Assembly: GCA_031285695.1 (NCBI GenBank)
Contig: JAITVR010000058.1
Span: 1 to 9,814 of the forward strand
Direction: 5' to 3'
Source of the DNA: Prevotellaceae bacterium
GTDB lineage: Bacteria; Bacteroidota; Bacteroidia; Bacteroidales; UBA932
Length of the DNA stretch: 9,814 nucleotides
The notes below the pieces were generated by a model, which was given only the letters and a program-made list of their open reading frames with translations, was not told where the DNA came from and did not search any database. Positions 3,529 through 9,814 of this stretch are shown here, piece by piece; the stretch's first letter is position 1, and the number at the start of each line of letters is the position of its first letter. A program made the position numbers and the translations under genes.

Positions 3529-3531
3529 AAA

Positions 3532-3601
3532 AGTTTACAGTTTACAAGTTAACAAGTTTACACAAAAAACGGTTAACTCGTAAACTGTAAACTTGTAAAC
3601 T
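3532..3601. repeat. Strong inverted repeat in the murE-mraY junction
   Basis: The arm AGTTTACAGTTTACAAGTTA plus AC (3532-3553) pairs with 3572-3593, with one mismatch in 22 positions around an 18-base loop (AAGTTTACACAAAAAACG, 3554-3571). A further TGTAAACT follows at 3594-3601. Both arms are built from repeated GTTTAC / GTAAAC units. Six A residues rather than T residues follow, so a rho-independent terminator on the + strand is unlikely. mraY starts nine bases after the repeat. It is probably a dispersed palindromic repeat that is transcribed as part of the operon. Confidence 0.85.
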
Positions 3602-3610
3602 AAAAAAGCT

Positions 3611-4942
3611 ATGCTGTACCACTTAATCAACCACCTTGGTTCGCTCTACGATTTTCCGGGCGAGCGACTGATAAACTACCTCTCCTTTAGGGCGGGGGTG
3701 GGCGTGCTGCTGGCGCTCATTATGGGCTTGGTGTTTGGCAAGCGCATTATTGGGCGGCTGCAAAAAATGCTCATAGGCGAAGAAATTCGCGACCTCGGCA
3801 TTGAGGGGCAGCTGCAAAAAAAGGGAACCCCCACCATGGGCGGCATCATTATACTGCTGTGCATACTGGTACCCACGCTGCTGCTGGCCGACCTTACCAA
3901 CATGTACACCTGGCTCATGATTATTAGCACCGTGTGGCTGGGCACGCTTGGTTTTTTGGACGATTACATCAAGGTTTTTAAAAAGAATAAGGCAGGGCTA
4001 CAGGGCAAATTCAAAATCATTGGGCAGGTAGGCATAGGCGTTATTGTGAGCCTTATACTGTACAAGGGCGATACCTTTACCGTGCAGGAAAGGATTCCTG
4101 ATTTCAAATTCCAAATTTCAAATTACGCACAAGCCGACACACAGGGGAGCTCGAGCGAAGGAAAATCTGAAATCAGAAACCTGAAAGCTGAAACCCAAAG
4201 GCTCAGCGCACCGCACAAGAGCACTACCACCACCATTCCATTTTTCAAAAACAACGAGTTTGACTACACCATGCTGGTGCCCGATTTTTTTGGCGAGCAC
4301 AAGCAAGATGTGGGCTGGCTCATTTTTATGCTCGTTACCATATTCATCATAGCGGCGGTGAGCAACGGCGCCAACCTTACCGATGGCATGGACGGGCTGG
4401 CCTCGGGCGTATCCATCATTATAGGCATTACGCTGGGCATACTGGCCTACCTTTCAAACAACATAATTTACGCCGACTACCTGCAAATAATGTACATTCC
4501 GGGCTCGGGCGAGCTGGTTATATTTATGGCCATAGTGATAGGGGCGCTCATAGGCTTTTTGTGGTACAACACCTACCCCGCGCAGGTATTTATGGGCGAC
4601 ACGGGCAGCTTGGCGCTGGGCGGCATCATTGGCGTTTTTGCCATTGTAATACGCAAAGAGCTGTTGATTCCCATACTATGCGGCATCTTTTTTGTCGAAA
4701 GCCTGTCGGTAATTCTGCAAACAGCCTACTTTAAGTACAGCAAGCACAAGTACGGCGAGGGGCGGCGCATATTCAAAATGTCGCCCCTGCACCACCACTT
4801 TCAAAAGCCGGGCGATGGCAGCATCAAAGCGCTTATGCAAAAGCCCTACAAGCCCCTGCCCGAGGCCAAAATTGTGGTGCGCTTTTGGATTGTGGCGGCG
4901 CTGCTGGCCATTACGGCCATACTAACGTTGAAGGTGAGGTAG
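3611..4942 (+). CDS. mraY: Phospho-N-acetylmuramoyl-pentapeptide-transferase (MraY)
   Basis: Polytopic inner-membrane enzyme that transfers phospho-MurNAc-pentapeptide from UDP to undecaprenyl phosphate, giving lipid I. The family motifs are intact: KKGTPTMGG at 70-78, the Asp pair in LDDYIK (117-118), [10 protein letters not shown] with Asp258 and Asp261, GDTGS (Asp330), and the histidine triad in SPLHHHF (395-397). Several hydrophobic membrane segments flank these. At 443 residues it is long for the family; proteobacterial members are about 360. Part of the excess is a low-complexity polar stretch at about 163-200, between the fourth and fifth membrane segments, encoded by an in-frame palindromic repeat (separate entry). 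Conserved sequence resumes at [20 protein letters not shown] 3611 gives the normal N-terminus and lacks a Shine-Dalgarno sequence. The gene follows murE, as in other Bacteroidota clusters. Confidence 0.97.
4097..4191. repeat. In-frame palindromic repeat inside mraY
   Basis: The arm at 4097-4124 (CCTGATTTCAAATTCC, then AAATTTCAAATT) matches the reverse complement of 4164-4191 (AATCTGAAATCAGAAACC, then TGAAAGCTGA) at 19 of 28 positions. Several mismatches are T/C differences, so they would be G-U pairs in one strand's RNA. The repeat encodes roughly residues 163-194 of MraY ([12 protein letters not shown] through SEIRNLKAE), with no stop codon and the frame kept. The peptide is polar, unlike the flanking membrane segments, and falls in the predicted periplasmic loop between membrane segments 4 and 5. 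Bacteroidota MraY proteins already have a variable loop here, so the insertion site is tolerant. Confidence 0.7.
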
Positions 4943-4947
4943 CACCA

Positions 4948-5019
4948 CGTCATTGCGAGGAGGTACGACGAAGCAATCTCCTACCAACTTGAGATTGCTT
5001 CGCTTCGCTCGCAATGACG
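4948..5019. repeat. Nested hairpin repeat, copy 1 (CGTCATTGCGAG family)
   Basis: The outer arms CGTCATTGCGAG (4948-4959) and CTCGCAATGACG (5008-5019) are perfect complements. The inner arms CGAAGCAATCTC (4969-4980) and GAGATTGCTTCG (4991-5002) are also perfect, around a 10-base loop (CTACCAACTT). The repeat starts six bases after the mraY stop. From memory, CGTCATTGCGAG...CTCGCAATGACG palindromes are multicopy in many unrelated bacterial genomes. No run of T follows, so termination is not shown. Confidence 0.9.
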
Positions 5020-5040: not shown

Positions 5041-5291
5041 TAAAAGGCGGCTTGCAGAAGCTCTGCAAGAGGTAAAGATGACAAAATGTCAGCCGCAGAA
5101 GCTTCTGCAAACGACAAAGAGGGTAAAAAGCAGCTTGCAGAAAGCTCTGCAAACGACAAAGAGGGCAAAAATCGACTTGCAGAAGGTGCAGCAAGGGCAA
5201 AAGAGGGCAAAAAGCAGCTTGCAGAAAGTTCGGCAAGAGGTAAACATGACAAAATGTCACTTGCAGGAAGTCCTGCAAGGGCAAAAGAGGG
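5041..5291. repeat. Six tandem 42-base units, each with an internal dyad
   Basis: Units are at 5041-5081 (41 bases), 5082-5123, 5124-5165, 5166-5207, 5208-5249 and 5250-5291. The shared core is AAAAGCAGCTTGCAGAAAGC followed by TCTGCAA. Each unit has a dyad centred on the CTTGCAGA...TCTGCAAG core, clearest in units 1, 2, 3 and 6. Unit 2 has the perfect palindrome GCAGAAGCTTCTGC. Because 42 is a multiple of three, several frames stay open. One, 5086-5436 on the + strand, would give a lysine- and alanine-rich protein of 14-residue repeats (QLAESSANDKEGK, NRLAEGAARAKEGK). It then reads straight through the neighbouring hairpin repeats and has no convincing start signal, so I do not call it a gene. 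Units 1-2 and units 5-6 share the junction GATGACAAAATGTCA or CATGACAAAATGTCA, which suggests a higher-order duplication. Confidence 0.9.
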
Positions 5292-5324
5292 TAATTATAC
5301 TCGGGGTTATGCGCTTACGTTCGC

Positions 5325-5437
5325 CCACGTCATTGCGAGGCGCGAGGAACGAGCAACGAAGCAAAGGTTTCACGCTGTCATACCGCGCTTGACGCGGTAT
5401 CTCCCGGCTGAAGATTGCGGGTCAAGCCCGCAATGAC
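5325..5437. repeat. Hairpin repeat, copy 2, with chimeric core
   Basis: It opens with CCACGTCATTGCGAG (5325-5339) and closes with GCAATGAC (5430-5437), so the outer boundary resembles copies 1 and 3. The inner GAAGCAATCTC...GAGATTGCTTC stem is missing. In its place are two short hairpins: ATACCGCG/CGCGGTAT (5380-5387 and 5393-5400, loop CTTGA) and ATTGCGGG/CCCGCAAT (5414-5421 and 5427-5434, loop TCAAG). The two loops are reverse complements of each other. This reads as a second palindrome family fused into the first. Confidence 0.85.
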
Positions 5438-5486
5438 AACAGGAAAAAGAGGGTAATTATACTCGGGGTTATGCGCTTACGCTCGC

Positions 5487-5578
5487 CCACGTCATTGCGA
5501 GGCGCGAGGAACGAGCAACGAAGCAATCTCAAGCCCGATGTTGAGATTGCTTCGGGAAATACCCTCGCAATGACGTGG
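5487..5578. repeat. Nested hairpin repeat, copy 3 (CGTCATTGCGAG family)
   Basis: The outer arms CCACGTCATTGCGAG (5487-5501) and CTCGCAATGACGTGG (5564-5578) are perfect over 15 bases. The inner arms GAAGCAATCTCAA (5520-5532) and TTGAGATTGCTTC (5541-5553) are perfect over 13 bases, around an 8-base loop (GCCCGATG). This is the most complete of the three copies in the mraY-murD gap. It lies about 60 bases before the murD start. Confidence 0.9.
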
Positions 5579-5611
5579 CAGCAGGGCTGAGTGACAACAG
5601 GCAAAATTTTT

Positions 5612-5636
5612 AATTTTTAATTCTTAATTTTTAATT
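5612..5636. repeat. AT-rich 25-base repeat arm overlapping the murD start codon
   Basis: The sequence AATTTTTAATTCTTAATTTT followed by TAATT is identical to the right arm of the element between ftsW and murG (8546-8570). Its last two bases (5635-5636) are the TT of the murD TTG start codon, and the next base (5637) supplies the G. A G also follows the repeat at 8571. No partner left arm is visible upstream, so this looks like a solo arm. Confidence 0.85.
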
Positions 5637-7035
5637 GAACAAGCGTTTAGTCATACTTGGTGGCGGCGAAAGCGGCGTAGGCTCGGCAGTGCTGGGGCTT
5701 AAGCAGGGTTACGAGGTCTTTTTATCGGACATGGGGACGATAAAGCCCGAGTACGCCGCCCAGCTACAGCGCTACGGCGTGCCCTACGAGCAGGGCGGGC
5801 ACACCCCAGCGCTTATCCTCAACGCCCACGAGGTGGTAAAAAGTCCCGGCATACCCGACACCGCGCCCTTGGTGCAGCAGCTCGTAGCCGCAGGCACCCC
5901 TATTTTGTCCGAAATAGAGTTTGCCGGCCGCTACACCAGCGCAAAAATGGTGTGCATAACCGGCAGCAACGGCAAAACCACCACCACCTCGCTACTATAC
6001 TACATGCTACAGCAGGCGGGGTTCAACGTGGGCTTGGGCGGCAACATTGGTAAAAGCTTTGCCCTGCAGGTAGCCACCGAAAACTTTGACTACTACGTGC
6101 TGGAGCTAAGCTCCTTTCAGCTCGATAACATGTACACGTTCAAGGCCGATGTTGCCATACTGCTCAACATTACGCCCGACCACTTAGATAGGTACGACTA
6201 TAAGCTGGAAAGCTACGCCCGCTCAAAGCTGCGCATAGCGCAAAATATGGACGCCAACGGCACCTTCATCTACTGCGCCGACGATGAGCTGAGCACAAAA
6301 TATTTGGCAGAAGCCAATGTACAGGCGCAAGTAGTGCCTTTTAGCATGAACAAGACATGCGACACGCGACATGCGATATGCGAAAATGTAAGTCGCACAT
6401 CGCATATCGAGCATCGCACATCGAACAACGGAGCTTTTTTAAACGATAACAAACTTACCTCTATGTACCACAACGACACCTTCGAAATGCTGGCAGGCGA
6501 GCTATCGCTCAAGGGCAAGCACAACCTCTACAACTCCATGGCGGCTACCATTGCCGGACAGGCGCTGCGCATACGCAAGGAAACCATTCGCCAAAGCCTA
6601 AGCAGCTTCAAAAGCATTGAGCACCGCTTAGAGCCCGTGCTAAAGGTGGGCGGCATGCTGTTTGTAAACGATAGCAAGGCCACCAACATCAACTCCACCT
6701 GGTACGCCCTCGAAAGCATGACCACCCCCACCGTGTGGATTGTGGGCGGCAAGGACAAGGGCAACGACTACAGCGAGCTCTCGGAGCTCGTTCGCCTCAA
6801 GGTCAAAGCCATTGTGTGCCTTGGCGTGGACAATAGCAAAATACACGCCGCCTTTGGCAGCATAGTCGATACTATTGTAGATACGCAAAGCGCCGAGGCA
6901 GCCGTAAAGGCCGCCTACAGCCTCGGCGAAAAGGGCGACACGGTGCTGCTCTCACCCGCCTGCGCCAGCTTCGACCTTTTTCAAAGCTACGAGGACAGAG
7001 GCAAGCAGTTTAAGGAAGCAGTGAAGAAGTTGTAA
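5635..7035 (+). CDS. murD: UDP-N-acetylmuramoyl-L-alanine--D-glutamate ligase (MurD)
   Basis: Cytoplasmic ATP-dependent ligase that adds D-glutamate to UDP-MurNAc-L-Ala. The N-terminal domain starts LVILGGGESGVGSAVLGL and carries VVKSPGIP (68-75). The ATP loop is GSNGKTTTT at 110-118. ELSSFQLDN (157-165), LNITPDHLDRY, the KAT of NDSKATN (about 348), GGKDKGNDY and SPACASFDLF (440-449) complete the Mur ligase set. At 466 residues it is slightly long, because about 25 residues at 240-265 come from an in-frame palindromic repeat. The start is TTG: a TAA lies directly upstream in frame and no ATG or GTG precedes the conserved Rossmann motif. The TT of this TTG belongs to an AT-rich repeat, which probably displaced an original ATG. 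The gene is separated from mraY by 692 repeat-filled bases but is otherwise in standard dcw order. Confidence 0.95.
   Translation: MNKRLVILGGGESGVGSAVLGLKQGYEVFLSDMGTIKPEYAAQLQRYGVPYEQGGHTPALILNAHEVVKSPGIPDTAPLVQQLVAAGTPILSEIEFAGRYTSAKMVCITGSNGKTTTTSLLYYMLQQAGFNVGLGGNIGKSFALQVATENFDYYVLELSSFQLDNMYTFKADVAILLNITPDHLDRYDYKLESYARSKLRIAQNMDANGTFIYCADDELSTKYLAEANVQAQVVPFSMNKTCDTRHAICENVSRTSHIEHRTSNNGAFLNDNKLTSMYHNDTFEMLAGELSLKGKHNLYNSMAATIAGQALRIRKETIRQSLSSFKSIEHRLEPVLKVGGMLFVNDSKATNINSTWYALESMTTPTVWIVGGKDKGNDYSELSELVRLKVKAIVCLGVDNSKIHAAFGSIVDTIVDTQSAEAAVKAAYSLGEKGDTVLLSPACASFDLFQSYEDRGKQFKEAVKKL
6352..6429. repeat. In-frame palindromic repeat inside murD
   Basis: This is a run of related GCGACATGCGATATGCGA and TCGCACATCGCATATCG units. 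CGATATGCGA (6374-6383) and TCGCATATCG (6400-6409) form a perfect 10-base stem around AAATGTAAGTCGCACA. Further copies of ATCGCACATCGA lie on the right. It encodes about residues 240-265 (KTCDTRHAICENV through EHRTSNN), rich in Arg, His, Ser and Thr and unlike MurD family sequence. Conserved sequence resumes at NGAFLNDNKL. The reading frame is kept. Its borders are judged from the translated sequence and are approximate. Confidence 0.75.
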
Positions 7036-7155: not shown

Positions 7156-8442
7156 ATGAGCAAGTTAGATAACATAGACCGCTACTTTAAGGGCGATAAG
7201 ATGATTTGGCTGGTAGTAATGCTGCTATCCGTCTTTTCGTTGCTGGTAGTGTTTTCGTCCACCGCGGCGCTGGCAGCGCGTGCCGAGGTAGCGCCCTTTA
7301 GCTACTTCCTCAAGCAGCTCATGTTTTTGGTGGTGGGCTTTGGCGTGCTGTACTTCATTTCGCGCCTGCCCTCTACCCTGTTTATGGGCGCAGCGCAAGC
7401 CGGTTTTTGGATTAGCATTGGGCTGCTGCTGCTCATGCTCATTATGGGGCGCAGCTACAACCAGGCGGTGCGCTCGCTCTTTGGCTTTCAGCCTGCCGAA
7501 ATAGCCAAGGTTGCCCTCATTATTTACGTAGCAAGGCTGCTTACCGTCAATCAAGACGTCATTCACGAGGGTTGGAAAAAAGGTTACATCAAAATACTTT
7601 TACCTGTGCTTGCCACCTGCGGACTCATATTTTTATCCAACTTTTCTACCGCAGCGGTGCTTGGCCTTACCTGCTTCATCATGATGTTTATTGGGCGCGT
7701 GCGCATCAAGCATTTGGTGGTAACCGTAGGTTTGGCAGTAGCCTTGCTTGCTCCCGCGCTGTTTCTAACCAAAATTATTGACGACCAAGTTGACGCTAAG
7801 CGCGCAAAGAGGGAGCAAATTACGGGCGCCCTTGCCACCGGCTACAAAATTGTGAGCAAAACGCGCCTGCAAACCATCTACGGACGAATTTTTACCTGGC
7901 AGGAGGAGAAAAAAGAGGATACCGACAAAAAAACGCTGCAACCTACGCAGTCCGATTTTGCCAAAAAAGCCATTGCCTCCGGCGGCCTACTGTGGGGCAA
8001 GGGGCCCGGCAACAGCACCATGCGCTACCGCCTACCCGAGGCCTTCAGCGATTTTGTGTTTGCCATTGTGGTGGAGGAGTACGGCGTGCTGTTTGCCTGC
8101 ATTGTTATACTGTGCTACCTCATTGTGCTGTACCGCGTGGGCGTAATGGCCAAAAAGTCCACACGCTTCTTCCCCACCCTGCTATCCATTGGCATCAGCA
8201 CGCAGGTAATGCTACAGGCGCTGGTCAACATGTGCGTATCCACCGGCATTACACCCGTAACGGGACAAAACCTGCCCTTCATTAGCCAAGGCGGTTCGTC
8301 GCTCATTATTACCTGCGTAATGTTTGGCATACTGCTCAGCGTAAGCCGCAGCCAAACCGAAGCCGAAGAAAAAGAAGCCCTGCGCAAAGCAAAATTAGAG
8401 GCAGCAAGCAATGAACAGGAGCAAATAGTAATTAAAAATTAA
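7156..8442 (+). CDS. ftsW: Septal peptidoglycan glycosyltransferase FtsW (SEDS family)
   Basis: Multi-pass membrane SEDS protein that polymerises lipid II at the septum with its partner FtsI, encoded upstream. The 428-residue protein has about ten hydrophobic segments, beginning at residues 16-38. The catalytic region LPEAFSDFVFAIVVEE (293-308) has the expected SEDS aspartate at 299. The C-terminal NMCVSTGITPVTGQNLPFISQGGSS (358-382) is a hallmark of FtsW and RodA. FQPAEIAKVA (111-120) is present. The preceding NGAxRW motif is changed to NQAVRSL, with the Trp lost. FtsW is favoured over RodA by the dcw position between murD and murG. The last residues (VIKN) and the stop are contributed by the AT-rich repeat that begins at 8430. 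ATG 7156 has no Shine-Dalgarno sequence. Confidence 0.95.
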   Translation: MSKLDNIDRYFKGDKMIWLVVMLLSVFSLLVVFSSTAALAARAEVAPFSYFLKQLMFLVVGFGVLYFISRLPSTLFMGAAQAGFWISIGLLLLMLIMGRSYNQAVRSLFGFQPAEIAKVALIIYVARLLTVNQDVIHEGWKKGYIKILLPVLATCGLIFLSNFSTAAVLGLTCFIMMFIGRVRIKHLVVTVGLAVALLAPALFLTKIIDDQVDAKRAKREQITGALATGYKIVSKTRLQTIYGRIFTWQEEKKEDTDKKTLQPTQSDFAKKAIASGGLLWGKGPGNSTMRYRLPEAFSDFVFAIVVEEYGVLFACIVILCYLIVLYRVGVMAKKSTRFFPTLLSIGISTQVMLQALVNMCVSTGITPVTGQNLPFISQGGSSLIITCVMFGILLSVSRSQTEAEEKEALRKAKLEAASNEQEQIVIKN

Positions 8443-8570
8443 GAATTAAAAATTAAAAAAATGATGATGTGGAGTAGCGTAATACAGGATACGAGTTATC
8501 AACTTCGTACAAATATCTTTACAATAAGAAGCAAATTTAATTCCTAATTTTTAATTCTTAATTTTTAATT
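8430..8570. mobile_element. Small AT-flanked insertion element, collapsed copy
   Basis: The left arm 8430-8454 (AATTAAAAATTAAG, then AATTAAAAATT) and the right arm 8546-8570 are perfect 25-base reverse complements. They enclose about 90 bases that resemble the start of the four-helix-bundle gene at 9699, with an internal deletion. The left arm is followed by AAAAAAATGATG, exactly as at 9693-9704. The right side has an extra TTAATTCC step before the arm. No clear target-site duplication is visible. The element begins inside ftsW, whose last codons and stop it provides, and ends three bases before the murG ATG. It has no transposase and would need help in trans. The mobile nature is inferred from the repeated structure, not demonstrated. 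Confidence 0.6.
8461..8535 (+). pseudogene. Decayed 5' remnant of a four-helix-bundle (S23/IVP) protein gene
   Basis: The segment starts ATGATG after seven A residues, as in the intact gene at 9699, and shares ATACAG at 8482-8487. About 20 bases are then missing. Similarity resumes strongly: TACGAGTTATCAACTT (8490-8505) matches TACGAATCATCAACTT (9748-9763) at 14 of 16 positions, and TACAAATATCTTTAC (8508-8522) matches TACAAGTACCTTTGC at 12 of 15. Every mismatch in these two blocks is a transition. The deletion and a one-base indel disrupt the frame. What remains is a 28-codon open frame (8461-8547) beginning MMMWSSVIQ, where only VIQ agrees with the intact protein. It is unlikely to be functional. 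Confidence 0.65.
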
Positions 8571-8573
8571 GAT

Positions 8574-9680
8574 ATGGGCAAGCGTATCATCATCAGCGGC
8601 GGCGGCACAGGTGGCCACATCTTCCCCGCCATATCCATAGCCAATGCGCTGAAGCAAATCGACAGCAGCATCGAAATTCTATTTGTAGGCGCCGAGGGCA
8701 AAATGGAAATGGAAAAAGTTCCCGCCGCAGGCTACCAAATAGTCGGCTTGCCAATTATTGGCATCAAGCGCAGCATGCTATCAAGCCAAAATTTGAGCGT
8801 ACCCCTTAAGCTGCTCAAAAGCGTGCGGCGCGCCTCCAAAATCATCTCCGACTTCAAGCCCGATGTGGTGGTGGGCGTAGGCGGATACGCCAGCGCACCC
8901 ACGCTGTGGAGCGCGCAGAACAAGGGAATTCCAACGCTTATACAGGAGCAAAACTCCTACGCCGGCCTAACGAATAAGCTGCTGGCCAAGCGCGCCAAAA
9001 AGGTGTGCGTGGCGTACGATGGCATGTCACGCTTTTTTCCTGCACCGAAAATAATCTTTACCGGAAATCCCGTTCGTCAGGATTTGGGAAAGGTAGCCCA
9101 GCTGCGCAGCGAAGCCTTGATGGAGTTTGGCTTGGAGCCCAACAAAAAGACAATACTTATAGTGGGCGGAAGCCTTGGCGCACGCACCCTAAACCTAAGC
9201 GTGCTGCGCCACGCAAACGATATTGCTGCCGCGCACAACCTGCAAATTATTTGGCAAATTGGCGAAATATACGAGGCAAGCGTTCGCAAAAAGTTAGAAA
9301 CCTGCGACTGCAAAAACGTGAAGGTAATGCCCTTCATCAAGCGCATGGACTACGCGCTTTCCGCTGCCGATTTGGTTATTTCGCGCGCCGGTGCAGGCAC
9401 CATTTCGGAGCTGTGCGTGGTGCGCAAGCCCTGCATACTGGTGCCCTCGCCCAACGTGGCGGAGGACCACCAAACCGCCAACGCCATGGCGCTGGTACGG
9501 AAGAACGCCGCCATTTTAGTACCCGACAGCGAAGCGGTGGAAAACCTTATCCCCATTGCGCTAAAGGTGCTTGAAGATGCACAGCGCTTGCAGGAGTTAT
9601 CAAACAACATTGGCGCGCTGGCCACCACCAACGCAGCAAATGATATAGCGAAAGAAGTACTTTCTTTAATTAAAAATTAG
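8574..9680 (+). CDS. murG: UDP-GlcNAc:lipid I N-acetylglucosaminyltransferase (MurG)
   Basis: Peripheral membrane GT28 glycosyltransferase that adds GlcNAc to lipid I on the cytoplasmic face, producing the lipid II used by FtsW. The 368-residue length is normal. Glycine-rich loops are GGGTGGHIFPA at 9-19, GVGGYAS at 101-107 and GGSLGAR at 198-204. The acceptor-side motif EQNSYAGLTNK starts at 125. In the C-terminal domain, RAGAGTISEL (271-280) and EDHQTANA (297-304) form the UDP-GlcNAc site. ATG 8574 follows the AT-rich repeat by three bases and has no Shine-Dalgarno sequence. The protein ends LIKN and its TAG stop lies inside the next AT-rich repeat arm (9668-9692). In this phylum murC normally follows, but here the next gene encodes a four-helix-bundle protein. 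Confidence 0.97.
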   Translation: MGKRIIISGGGTGGHIFPAISIANALKQIDSSIEILFVGAEGKMEMEKVPAAGYQIVGLPIIGIKRSMLSSQNLSVPLKLLKSVRRASKIISDFKPDVVVGVGGYASAPTLWSAQNKGIPTLIQEQNSYAGLTNKLLAKRAKKVCVAYDGMSRFFPAPKIIFTGNPVRQDLGKVAQLRSEALMEFGLEPNKKTILIVGGSLGARTLNLSVLRHANDIAAAHNLQIIWQIGEIYEASVRKKLETCDCKNVKVMPFIKRMDYALSAADLVISRAGAGTISELCVVRKPCILVPSPNVAEDHQTANAMALVRKNAAILVPDSEAVENLIPIALKVLEDAQRLQELSNNIGALATTNAANDIAKEVLSLIKN

Positions 9681-9692
9681 GAATTAAAAATT
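9668..9692. repeat. AT-rich 25-base left arm at the end of murG
   Basis: The arm AATTAAAAATTAGG followed by AATTAAAAATT differs from the left arm at 8430-8454 at one position (G for A). It contains the murG stop codon and supplies the last residues IKN. The same A-run and ATGATG follow it. By comparison with 8430-8570 it should be the left end of a full-length element whose right arm lies beyond the window. Confidence 0.8.
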
Positions 9693-9698
9693 AAAAAA

Positions 9699-9814
9699 AT
9701 GATGAAAACGGAGAATGTGATACAGAAAAAGTCATTTGCGTTTGCCGTACGAATCATCAACTTATACAAGTACCTTTGCGACGAAAAAAAGGATTATGTT
9801 TTATCAAAGCAAGT
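9699..9814 (+). CDS. Four-helix-bundle protein (S23 / 23S rRNA intervening-sequence family), 3' end missing
   Basis: The first 38 codons run from MMKTENVIQKKSFAFAV through RIINLYKYL and CDEKKDYVLSKQ to the window edge. The pattern VIQxKSFxFAxRIxNLYKYL...EKKxxVLSKQ is typical of the small four-helix-bundle family first known from intervening sequences in 23S rRNA genes and related to the Avd accessory proteins of diversity-generating retroelements. Members are usually about 115-130 residues, so roughly two thirds is missing. The cellular role of stand-alone members is unknown to me. The start could be 9699 or the adjacent ATG at 9702. The gene follows the AT-rich arm at the end of murG by six bases and has a collapsed relative between ftsW and murG. 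Confidence 0.88.
   Translation, partial: MMKTENVIQKKSFAFAVRIINLYKYLCDEKKDYVLSKQ

Follow-up and report, generated by a model that had tools for sequence, protein, structure and literature searches.

What are the repeat arms in which two genes of a bacterial cell wall cluster end, and what have they to do with the four-helix-bundle gene that follows one of them? The question is raised by a DNA stretch of 9,814 nucleotides from a Prevotellaceae bacterium (GenBank assembly GCA_031285695.1, contig JAITVR010000058.1), called the window here. It is a whole contig (C17) of the genome G000, which comprises 1.48 Mb in 255 contigs and is 77% complete, and it carries genes of the division and cell wall (dcw) cluster. 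We consider it fairly probable that the window holds two members of one family of units, in which a gene for an IVP protein (PF05635, also S23), or its likely remnant, lies between inverted, subfamily-specific tandem arrays of about 7 bp per repeat, and that such units move, likely through recognition by the IVP protein of its own hairpin and promotion of insertion at gene junctions. The two units and the genes that they adjoin are as follows.

7156..8442, + strand: ftsW, with its final codons and stop within an arm
8430..8455, + strand: left arm of the short unit, a heptamer array of AATTAAA/AATTAAG that includes the ftsW stop codon
8456..8544, + strand: interior of the short unit, resembling the start (~100 nt) of the IVP gene at 9699; probably what is left of such a gene after decay or internal deletion
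8545..8570, - strand: right arm of the short unit, an exact inverted copy of 8430-8455, 3 nt short of the murG start codon
8574..9680, + strand: murG, with its final codons and stop within an arm
9668..9693, + strand: left arm of the full unit, including the murG stop codon (9678-9680)
9699..9814, + strand: 5' part (38 codons) of the IVP/S23 four-helix-bundle gene, the rest being lost at the contig end

An initial annotation of the window had described facing perfect arms in the ftsW-murG gap and the same arm with one mismatch before the gene at 9699. Both descriptions were correct: the arms of the short unit are identical over 26 bp in inverted orientation, and the third copy differs from them at 1 base. 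The arms enclose the upstream stop codons (ftsW ends at 8442, murG at 9680), and the units are placed between ftsW and murG and after murG, not inside a 23S or 16S rRNA gene. The short unit has both ends and only a gene remnant as its interior, and the full unit is visible with its left end and the gene start. When folded as RNA, the region 8421-8580 reaches -36.9 kcal/mol; its shuffles averaged -18.7 kcal/mol, and none of 200 equalled it.

The interior of the short unit aligns to the gene at 9699 with a score that none of 1000 shuffles reached, and 2/1000 shuffles equal the alignment once the shared leader is removed. Its alignment to L007 and L008, the two nearest full genes, was no better than chance, so that the label of a decayed relative, given in the initial annotation, holds by comparison with the window gene only. 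The accompanying claim that the short copy is an internal-deletion derivative draws modest support from these alignments. At its length of 38 residues the window gene stays below the cut-offs of both family profiles (PF05635 and TIGR02436, both E = 0.0012; 19.4 and 19.0 bits), and its 38 codons resemble the opening of L007, a full-length relative in G000 that passes both cut-offs (98.3 and 105.7 bits, respectively). Contig C204, which starts with such an arm, was considered as the continuation past 9814 and rejected, since it does not run into murC (read by eye).

A profile search found 10 PF05635 places in G000. The flanks of these IVP genes hold inverted arms whose motif varies between genes and is alike on both sides of one gene, the units including TTTCAAA, GAGAGTT, TAGTTCA, TATGATT, ATGCGAC and AAAGTTTGT. 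As the arms differ between loci, an arm sequence common to every unit was ruled out. From the translations we take the neighbouring pairs to include pyrB and pyrI, mutA and a mutB-like gene, asnS and rpoN, and lepA and a SufE-like gene.

Arms were tested at each locus by reverse-complementing the downstream flank and aligning it to the upstream one; for comparison both flanks were dinucleotide-shuffled, 200 times for IVP loci and 100 times for control genes (90-200 amino acids). A matching right arm was found for 8/9 testable IVP genes in G000 at p ≤ 0.01 and for the ninth at p = 0.02 (one flank of L002 was too short). We then analysed three wider sets. The order set holds 83 IVP genes, mostly better-scoring, out of the 122 PF05635 places listed in the order to which the window belongs; its 84 profile matches, less one duplicate place and six with short flanks, gave 77 tested loci from 30 genomes. 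The named set comprises the 80 best among 571 confirmed stretches, ranked by likeness to the Xanthomonas protein Xcc0516, and spans Proteobacteria, Bacteroidota, Chloroflexi, Planctomycetota, Acidobacteria, Verrucomicrobia, candidate phyla, archaea and others. The plasmid set took 12 of 41 matches (11 cyanobacterial and one from Riemerella), two of which (L373 and L374) are near-duplicates.

Inverted arms at p ≤ 0.01 were present at 50/77 order loci, 58/80 named loci and 11/12 plasmid loci. Among control genes the same threshold was reached by 3/140 in IVP-positive genomes and 1/147 in IVP-negative genomes. As the initial annotation had anticipated, arms are thus commoner near IVP genes than elsewhere (108/157 order and named loci vs 4/287 controls; Fisher p = 1e-58). 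GC-rich arms such as GGGAATC, GCCGCCA and CAGGTGA behave like AT-rich ones, and two of the three archaeal loci (Methanophagales) have arms (L326 and L368, p = 0.005; L325, p = 0.77). Complementary ends around an IVP open reading frame, as in the intervening sequences (IVS) of rRNA genes, are therefore found at the level of the family.

The arms are tandem arrays. At loci with significant arms the best lag was 7 in 29 order and 31 named loci, 14 in 7 and 10, and 8 in 9 and 12, respectively, with a few at 6, 9 and 10. In some subfamilies the unit is 8 or 9 bp long instead of 7 bp (L236, L238, L068, L003, L225 and L245), and unit length seems to go with the protein subfamily. Across 49 loci, protein identity correlates with arm similarity (Mantel rho 0.21; 0/500 permutations as high), also when only different genomes are compared (rho 0.198; 0/500). 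With arm base composition controlled (54 loci), rho is 0.154, and 0.150 between genomes (0/500 permutations). Arms of the AAAGTTTGT type occur with proteins of 58-68% identity in three genera (L003, L225 and L245), and in L007 and L008, at unrelated junctions of G000, the likeness (81% nucleotide identity) spans 421 bp of arms plus gene and stops there. Arm motifs travel with IVP protein subfamilies. What this adds to the initial annotation is that the arms are subfamily-specific tandem 7-mers, that the pattern reaches far outside G000, and that heptamers published elsewhere are accounted for.

Arrays also occur away from IVP genes. These were sought in samples of 62-200 kb per genome, rather than whole genomes, with a detector of arrays of period 4 to 15 (four units, 80% identity). 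In 114 kb of G000, window included, it found 16 period-7 arrays, five of them within the window, and one array of any other period. Period-7 arrays were present in the samples of 6/6 IVP-positive genomes (16, 2, 1, 14, 16 and 2 arrays) and in 0/5 IVP-negative genomes (885 kb sampled, with GC content overlapping that of the IVP-positive set). The arrays of G000, G056 and G058 are similar to the arms of IVP genes in the same genome; for each of the three, none of 1000 random arm sets from other genomes did as well. A strict detector found 14 facing array pairs in 4/6 sampled IVP-positive genomes, namely eight in G000 (one with a 615-bp gap), four in G056 and one each in G046 and G050, and none in the samples of G058 and G019.

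Most copies of the AATTAAA arm in G000 do not adjoin an IVP gene, as expected of gene-less derivatives. At the AATTAAA-type places L015-L040 a strict pattern gave facing partners at three besides the window pair, so many of these places are solitary or have diverged partners. Counting the AATTAAA pattern against its reversed control (28 vs 30 matches) was uninformative, the pattern being nearly its own mirror image.

If the units move, relatives should include empty sites, as the initial annotation also reasoned, and such sites were found. Where the window has 131 bp between ftsW and murG, G033, its nearest relative by MurG, has 2 bp, and in G003 the two genes overlap. The gap is ≤44 bp in 23/27 relatives measured, the others having 825 bp (G001), 98 bp (G032), 88 bp (G016) and 346 bp (G064). 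The 825-bp insert of G001 (L073) opens with TTTTGAA heptamers, unlike the window array, so the insertions at ftsW-murG in sister species are separate ones. Both pyrB and pyrI lie on the locus in 25 relatives, and in all 25 the gap between them is ≤72 bp and free of any unit; four further loci are without pyrB.

Plasmids gave empty and filled sites at five junctions at about 90-95% nucleotide identity, with the genes on both sides of the insertions still annotated. The junction of TraM and a hypothetical gene is filled in Nostoc C052 and N. edaphicum (L377/L393) and empty in two C057 plasmids (L382/L383; 94%), and in ATCC 53789 (L384) it holds an arm-bounded remnant from which the gene is gone. 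Similarly, Picosynechococcus PCC 7003 carries a unit at cmr2-cmr3, where PCC 7002 has an empty site (90%). At the junction of an integrase and a hypothetical gene, two Calothrix NIES-22 plasmids have a unit that Tolypothrix, Aulosira and N. carneum lack (90-91%). Two ATCC 53789 plasmids carry different IVP units at neighbouring junctions of one Nostoc gene cluster (L378 vs L392), and both junctions are empty in L389, L390 and L391 (92-95%). A unit that is present at a junction in one plasmid and absent from close relatives likely moves.

The Xanthomonas IVP gene L290, a relative of Xcc0516 (PDB 2gsc), lies, to judge by the sequence, after accB and before accC between GGGAATC arrays; as seen in Xanthomonas, arms can sit inside the tails of open reading frames. 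Its genome holds 199 + 209 matches to the GGGAATC dimer (partly overlapping, ≤2 mismatches) against 1 + 3 for the reversed control. Among 79 genomes of the Xanthomonas family, an IVP gene was found in 17/19 with ≥20 GGGAATC dimers (1 mismatch) and in 18/60 with fewer (p = 7e-6). The GGGAATC heptamers of Xanthomonas are the arms of its IVP gene. These repeats were described by Rehm 2015 in a study of heptameric repeats in Xanthomonas and Nostoc, with convergent pairs (70 and 75 in two species) and positions beside stop and start codons; that study generally saw no association of the repeats to mobile elements (PMC4692102). No link of heptamers to IVP genes appears in the available portions of that paper or of MacGregor 2015 on TAACTGA (PMC4679880). 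Likewise, IVP genes joined to heptamer arrays as a mobile family were not found in the open-access literature as far as the accessible text extends (including PMC8700078, PMC11270868, PMC3936711, PMC10053308 and PMC10910872). The exception, in the part of PMC4990558 at hand, is the occurrence of heptamers before S23p together with earlier proposals of mobile IVS.

How might such a unit work? The IVP protein would bind its own repeats, as folded RNA or single-stranded DNA, and could mobilise full and gene-less units in trans, insertion being carried out by host enzymes or by an unrecognised activity of IVP itself. The paired arms may also form an RNA stem that is cut by RNase III, by which the insert would be tolerated in the operon; the same is published for the rRNA-borne relative in Coxiella (excerpts of PMC4990558). 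IVP genes are in sense with both neighbours at 86/111 loci, compared with 119/225 small control genes (p = 1.6e-5), an excess that better tolerance of sense insertions would produce.

Several observations weigh against movement by IVP. IVP is not known to have a catalytic activity. The arm threshold was missed at 27/77 order and 22/80 named loci, and flanks matched in direct orientation at p ≤ 0.01 in 34/157, which indicates that some flanks also hold same-direction arrays; the inverted signal (108/157) is three times as common. Arms compared on opposite strands also correlate with protein identity (rho 0.13; 0/500 permutations), so composition is part of the co-inheritance signal. Agreement in unit order between paired arms barely exceeds that of permuted units (7/37 at p ≤ 0.05), yet 33/37 exceed the permutation mean. 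Few arrays were sampled in the IVP-rich, low-GC genomes G046 and G050 (2 and 1), period 7 is not the commonest there or in G019, and several single arrays match no IVP arm of their own genome well. No constant target-site duplication was found across the five plasmid junctions (ATG was common to both sides once, TTCTA once); one filled site is ~40 bp short of its empty counterpart, and outside the right arm of another there are ~30 additional bp. G111 and G120 hold 50 and 35 GGGAATC dimers with no IVP gene detected, and may have lost the gene, lack that part of the sequence or have had their repeats mobilised in trans. Finally, S23p is suggested not to be made in Coxiella (PMC4990558). Telomere-like independent growth of the two ends was also considered and dropped, the unit-order test being weakly against it.

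Could the units be passive instead? IVP would then be an RNA-binding protein of the host or operon, and the arms would be RNA-processing stems selected in place and spread by ordinary recombination and horizontal transfer. The strong RNA stem of the window arms, the RNase III cleavage of the rRNA-borne relative (PMC4990558, in excerpt) and the excess of IVP genes in the direction of both neighbours all suit this account, but it predicts neither empty and filled versions of nearly identical sites nor different units at different junctions of one cluster in sister plasmids. Nor does it lead us to expect the arms of a subfamily at unrelated sites, or similar motifs in gene-less arrays, and we regard it as unlikely. 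Marginally less likely again is movement through RNA, whereby a reverse transcriptase provided in trans would copy the excised IVP RNA and IVP would play the part that its homologue Avd has in diversity-generating retroelements. The Avd profile NF033474 does reach IVP proteins (E = 1.4e-6 and 0.0075, below its cut-off), and the prevailing sense orientation of IVP genes fits this account. However, the reverse transcriptase profile PF00078 had no match in 7/14 multi-copy IVP genomes, namely G000 (77% complete) and 6/13 others, including four at 95-98% completeness.

Mobilisation of the hairpins by a Y1 (IS200/REP) transposase of the host genome, with IVP as a mere passenger, seems very doubtful to us. 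Although Y1_Tnp (PF01797) genes were found in 12/14 IVP genomes and the hairpin ends look like REPINs, there was no match in G000 (77% complete) or G022 (94% complete), and the motifs follow IVP subfamilies. With 7/14 and 2/14 genomes giving no match, and the incomplete G000 giving neither, a reverse transcriptase and a Y1 transposase both look dispensable. We give almost no credence to arms born of chance or slippage in AT-rich DNA and unrelated to the gene. Slippage can expand 7-mers and the window arms are almost pure A/T, but the GC-rich arms behave alike; the low control counts, the likeness of gene-less arrays to IVP arms of the same genome and the absence of arrays from the samples of five IVP-free genomes led us to reject chance AT-rich palindromes at the family level. 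Units that likely move through their own IVP protein are the reading that we favour. A wider proposition hangs in even balance in our judgement: that IVP units are a distinct and near-universal class of prokaryotic mobile elements with no known transposase, integrase or reverse transcriptase, made of one four-helix-bundle gene between co-evolving heptamer arrays that act as a private address, with gene-less satellites, and that rRNA IVS, the heptamers of Xanthomonas and Nostoc and 'CRISPR-associated' IVP genes all belong to it.

Other repeats in the window are the following.

3531..3594, no strand: small hairpin of AGTTTAC-type heptamers between murE and mraY, an inverted repeat with the heptamers read in the sequence
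4099..4193, no strand: facing heptamer arrays of TTTCAAA type and of reverse-complement AAATCTG type, within the open mraY frame
5611..5636, - strand: solitary arm of the same heptamer family as the two units, directly before murD
6353..6426, no strand: facing heptamer arrays of ATGCGAC type within the open murD frame; the motif is that of the arms of IVP locus L001

The facing arrays in mraY add some tens of residues in frame and recall palindromic elements that insert into proteins. In murD, the ATGCGAC-type array faces its reverse complement of CATCGCA type, likely as an in-frame insertion. Between mraY and murD lies a 42-bp tandem repeat (42 = 6 x 7; 5058-5309). Another palindromic repeat (CCACGTCATTGCGAGG...GAAGCAATCTC) occurs at 4945-4980, 5280-5364, 5442-5526 and 5543-5578, as two near-identical 85-bp copies with outer inverted arms.

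If movement by IVP is true, it would give a function to a common protein whose role has so far been unassigned, and it would explain the excess of heptamers among bacterial simple repeats, the facing pairs beside start and stop codons, and the presence of IVP genes within rRNA genes and cas operons. IVP genes between cas6 and cas4 (L371 and L372) and beside cmr2/cmr3 (L379) have their own heptamer arms. Because of these arms and the empty cmr2-cmr3 junction of PCC 7002, insertion alone may account for the link of IVP to CRISPR (clustered regularly interspaced short palindromic repeats) loci that surveys of gene neighbourhoods have published, and for any CRISPR-related role deduced from it. As a mover of DNA, IVP would be a 120-residue four-helix bundle without a known nuclease.

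How do these units compare with known systems? IVP is a distant relative of Avd, the four-helix-bundle protein of diversity-generating retroelements (PMC10053308, in the portion available). It differs from these retroelements in that half of the IVP genomes searched have no reverse transcriptase match. REPIN/RAYT systems consist of dispersed short palindromic repeats that are non-autonomous and of a cognate gene flanked by the same repeat. The initial annotation had loosely likened the window units to these, as self-assisted or non-autonomous units of arms and a four-helix-bundle gene, and the many gene-less palindromes that share the repeat of the cognate gene support the likeness. In contrast to REPIN/RAYT, the cognate protein here is a four-helix bundle (PF05635) and not a Y1 HUH transposase (PF01797), and tandem heptamer arrays form the ends, one genome holding several different motifs next to each other. 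The IVS of 23S rRNA genes in Coxiella and Leptospira have the same protein family and complementary ends. According to excerpts of PMC4990558, the Coxiella IVS also has GACAGAT heptamers directly before the S23p start codon and a 28-bp terminal stem cleaved by RNase III. The present units differ from rRNA IVS in that they occupy protein-coding operons, number several per genome, have arms specific to the subfamily and come with derivatives that lack the gene. IVP units are likely a family of mobile elements akin to rRNA intervening sequences, and the protein that they encode likely recognises the repeats that flank its gene.

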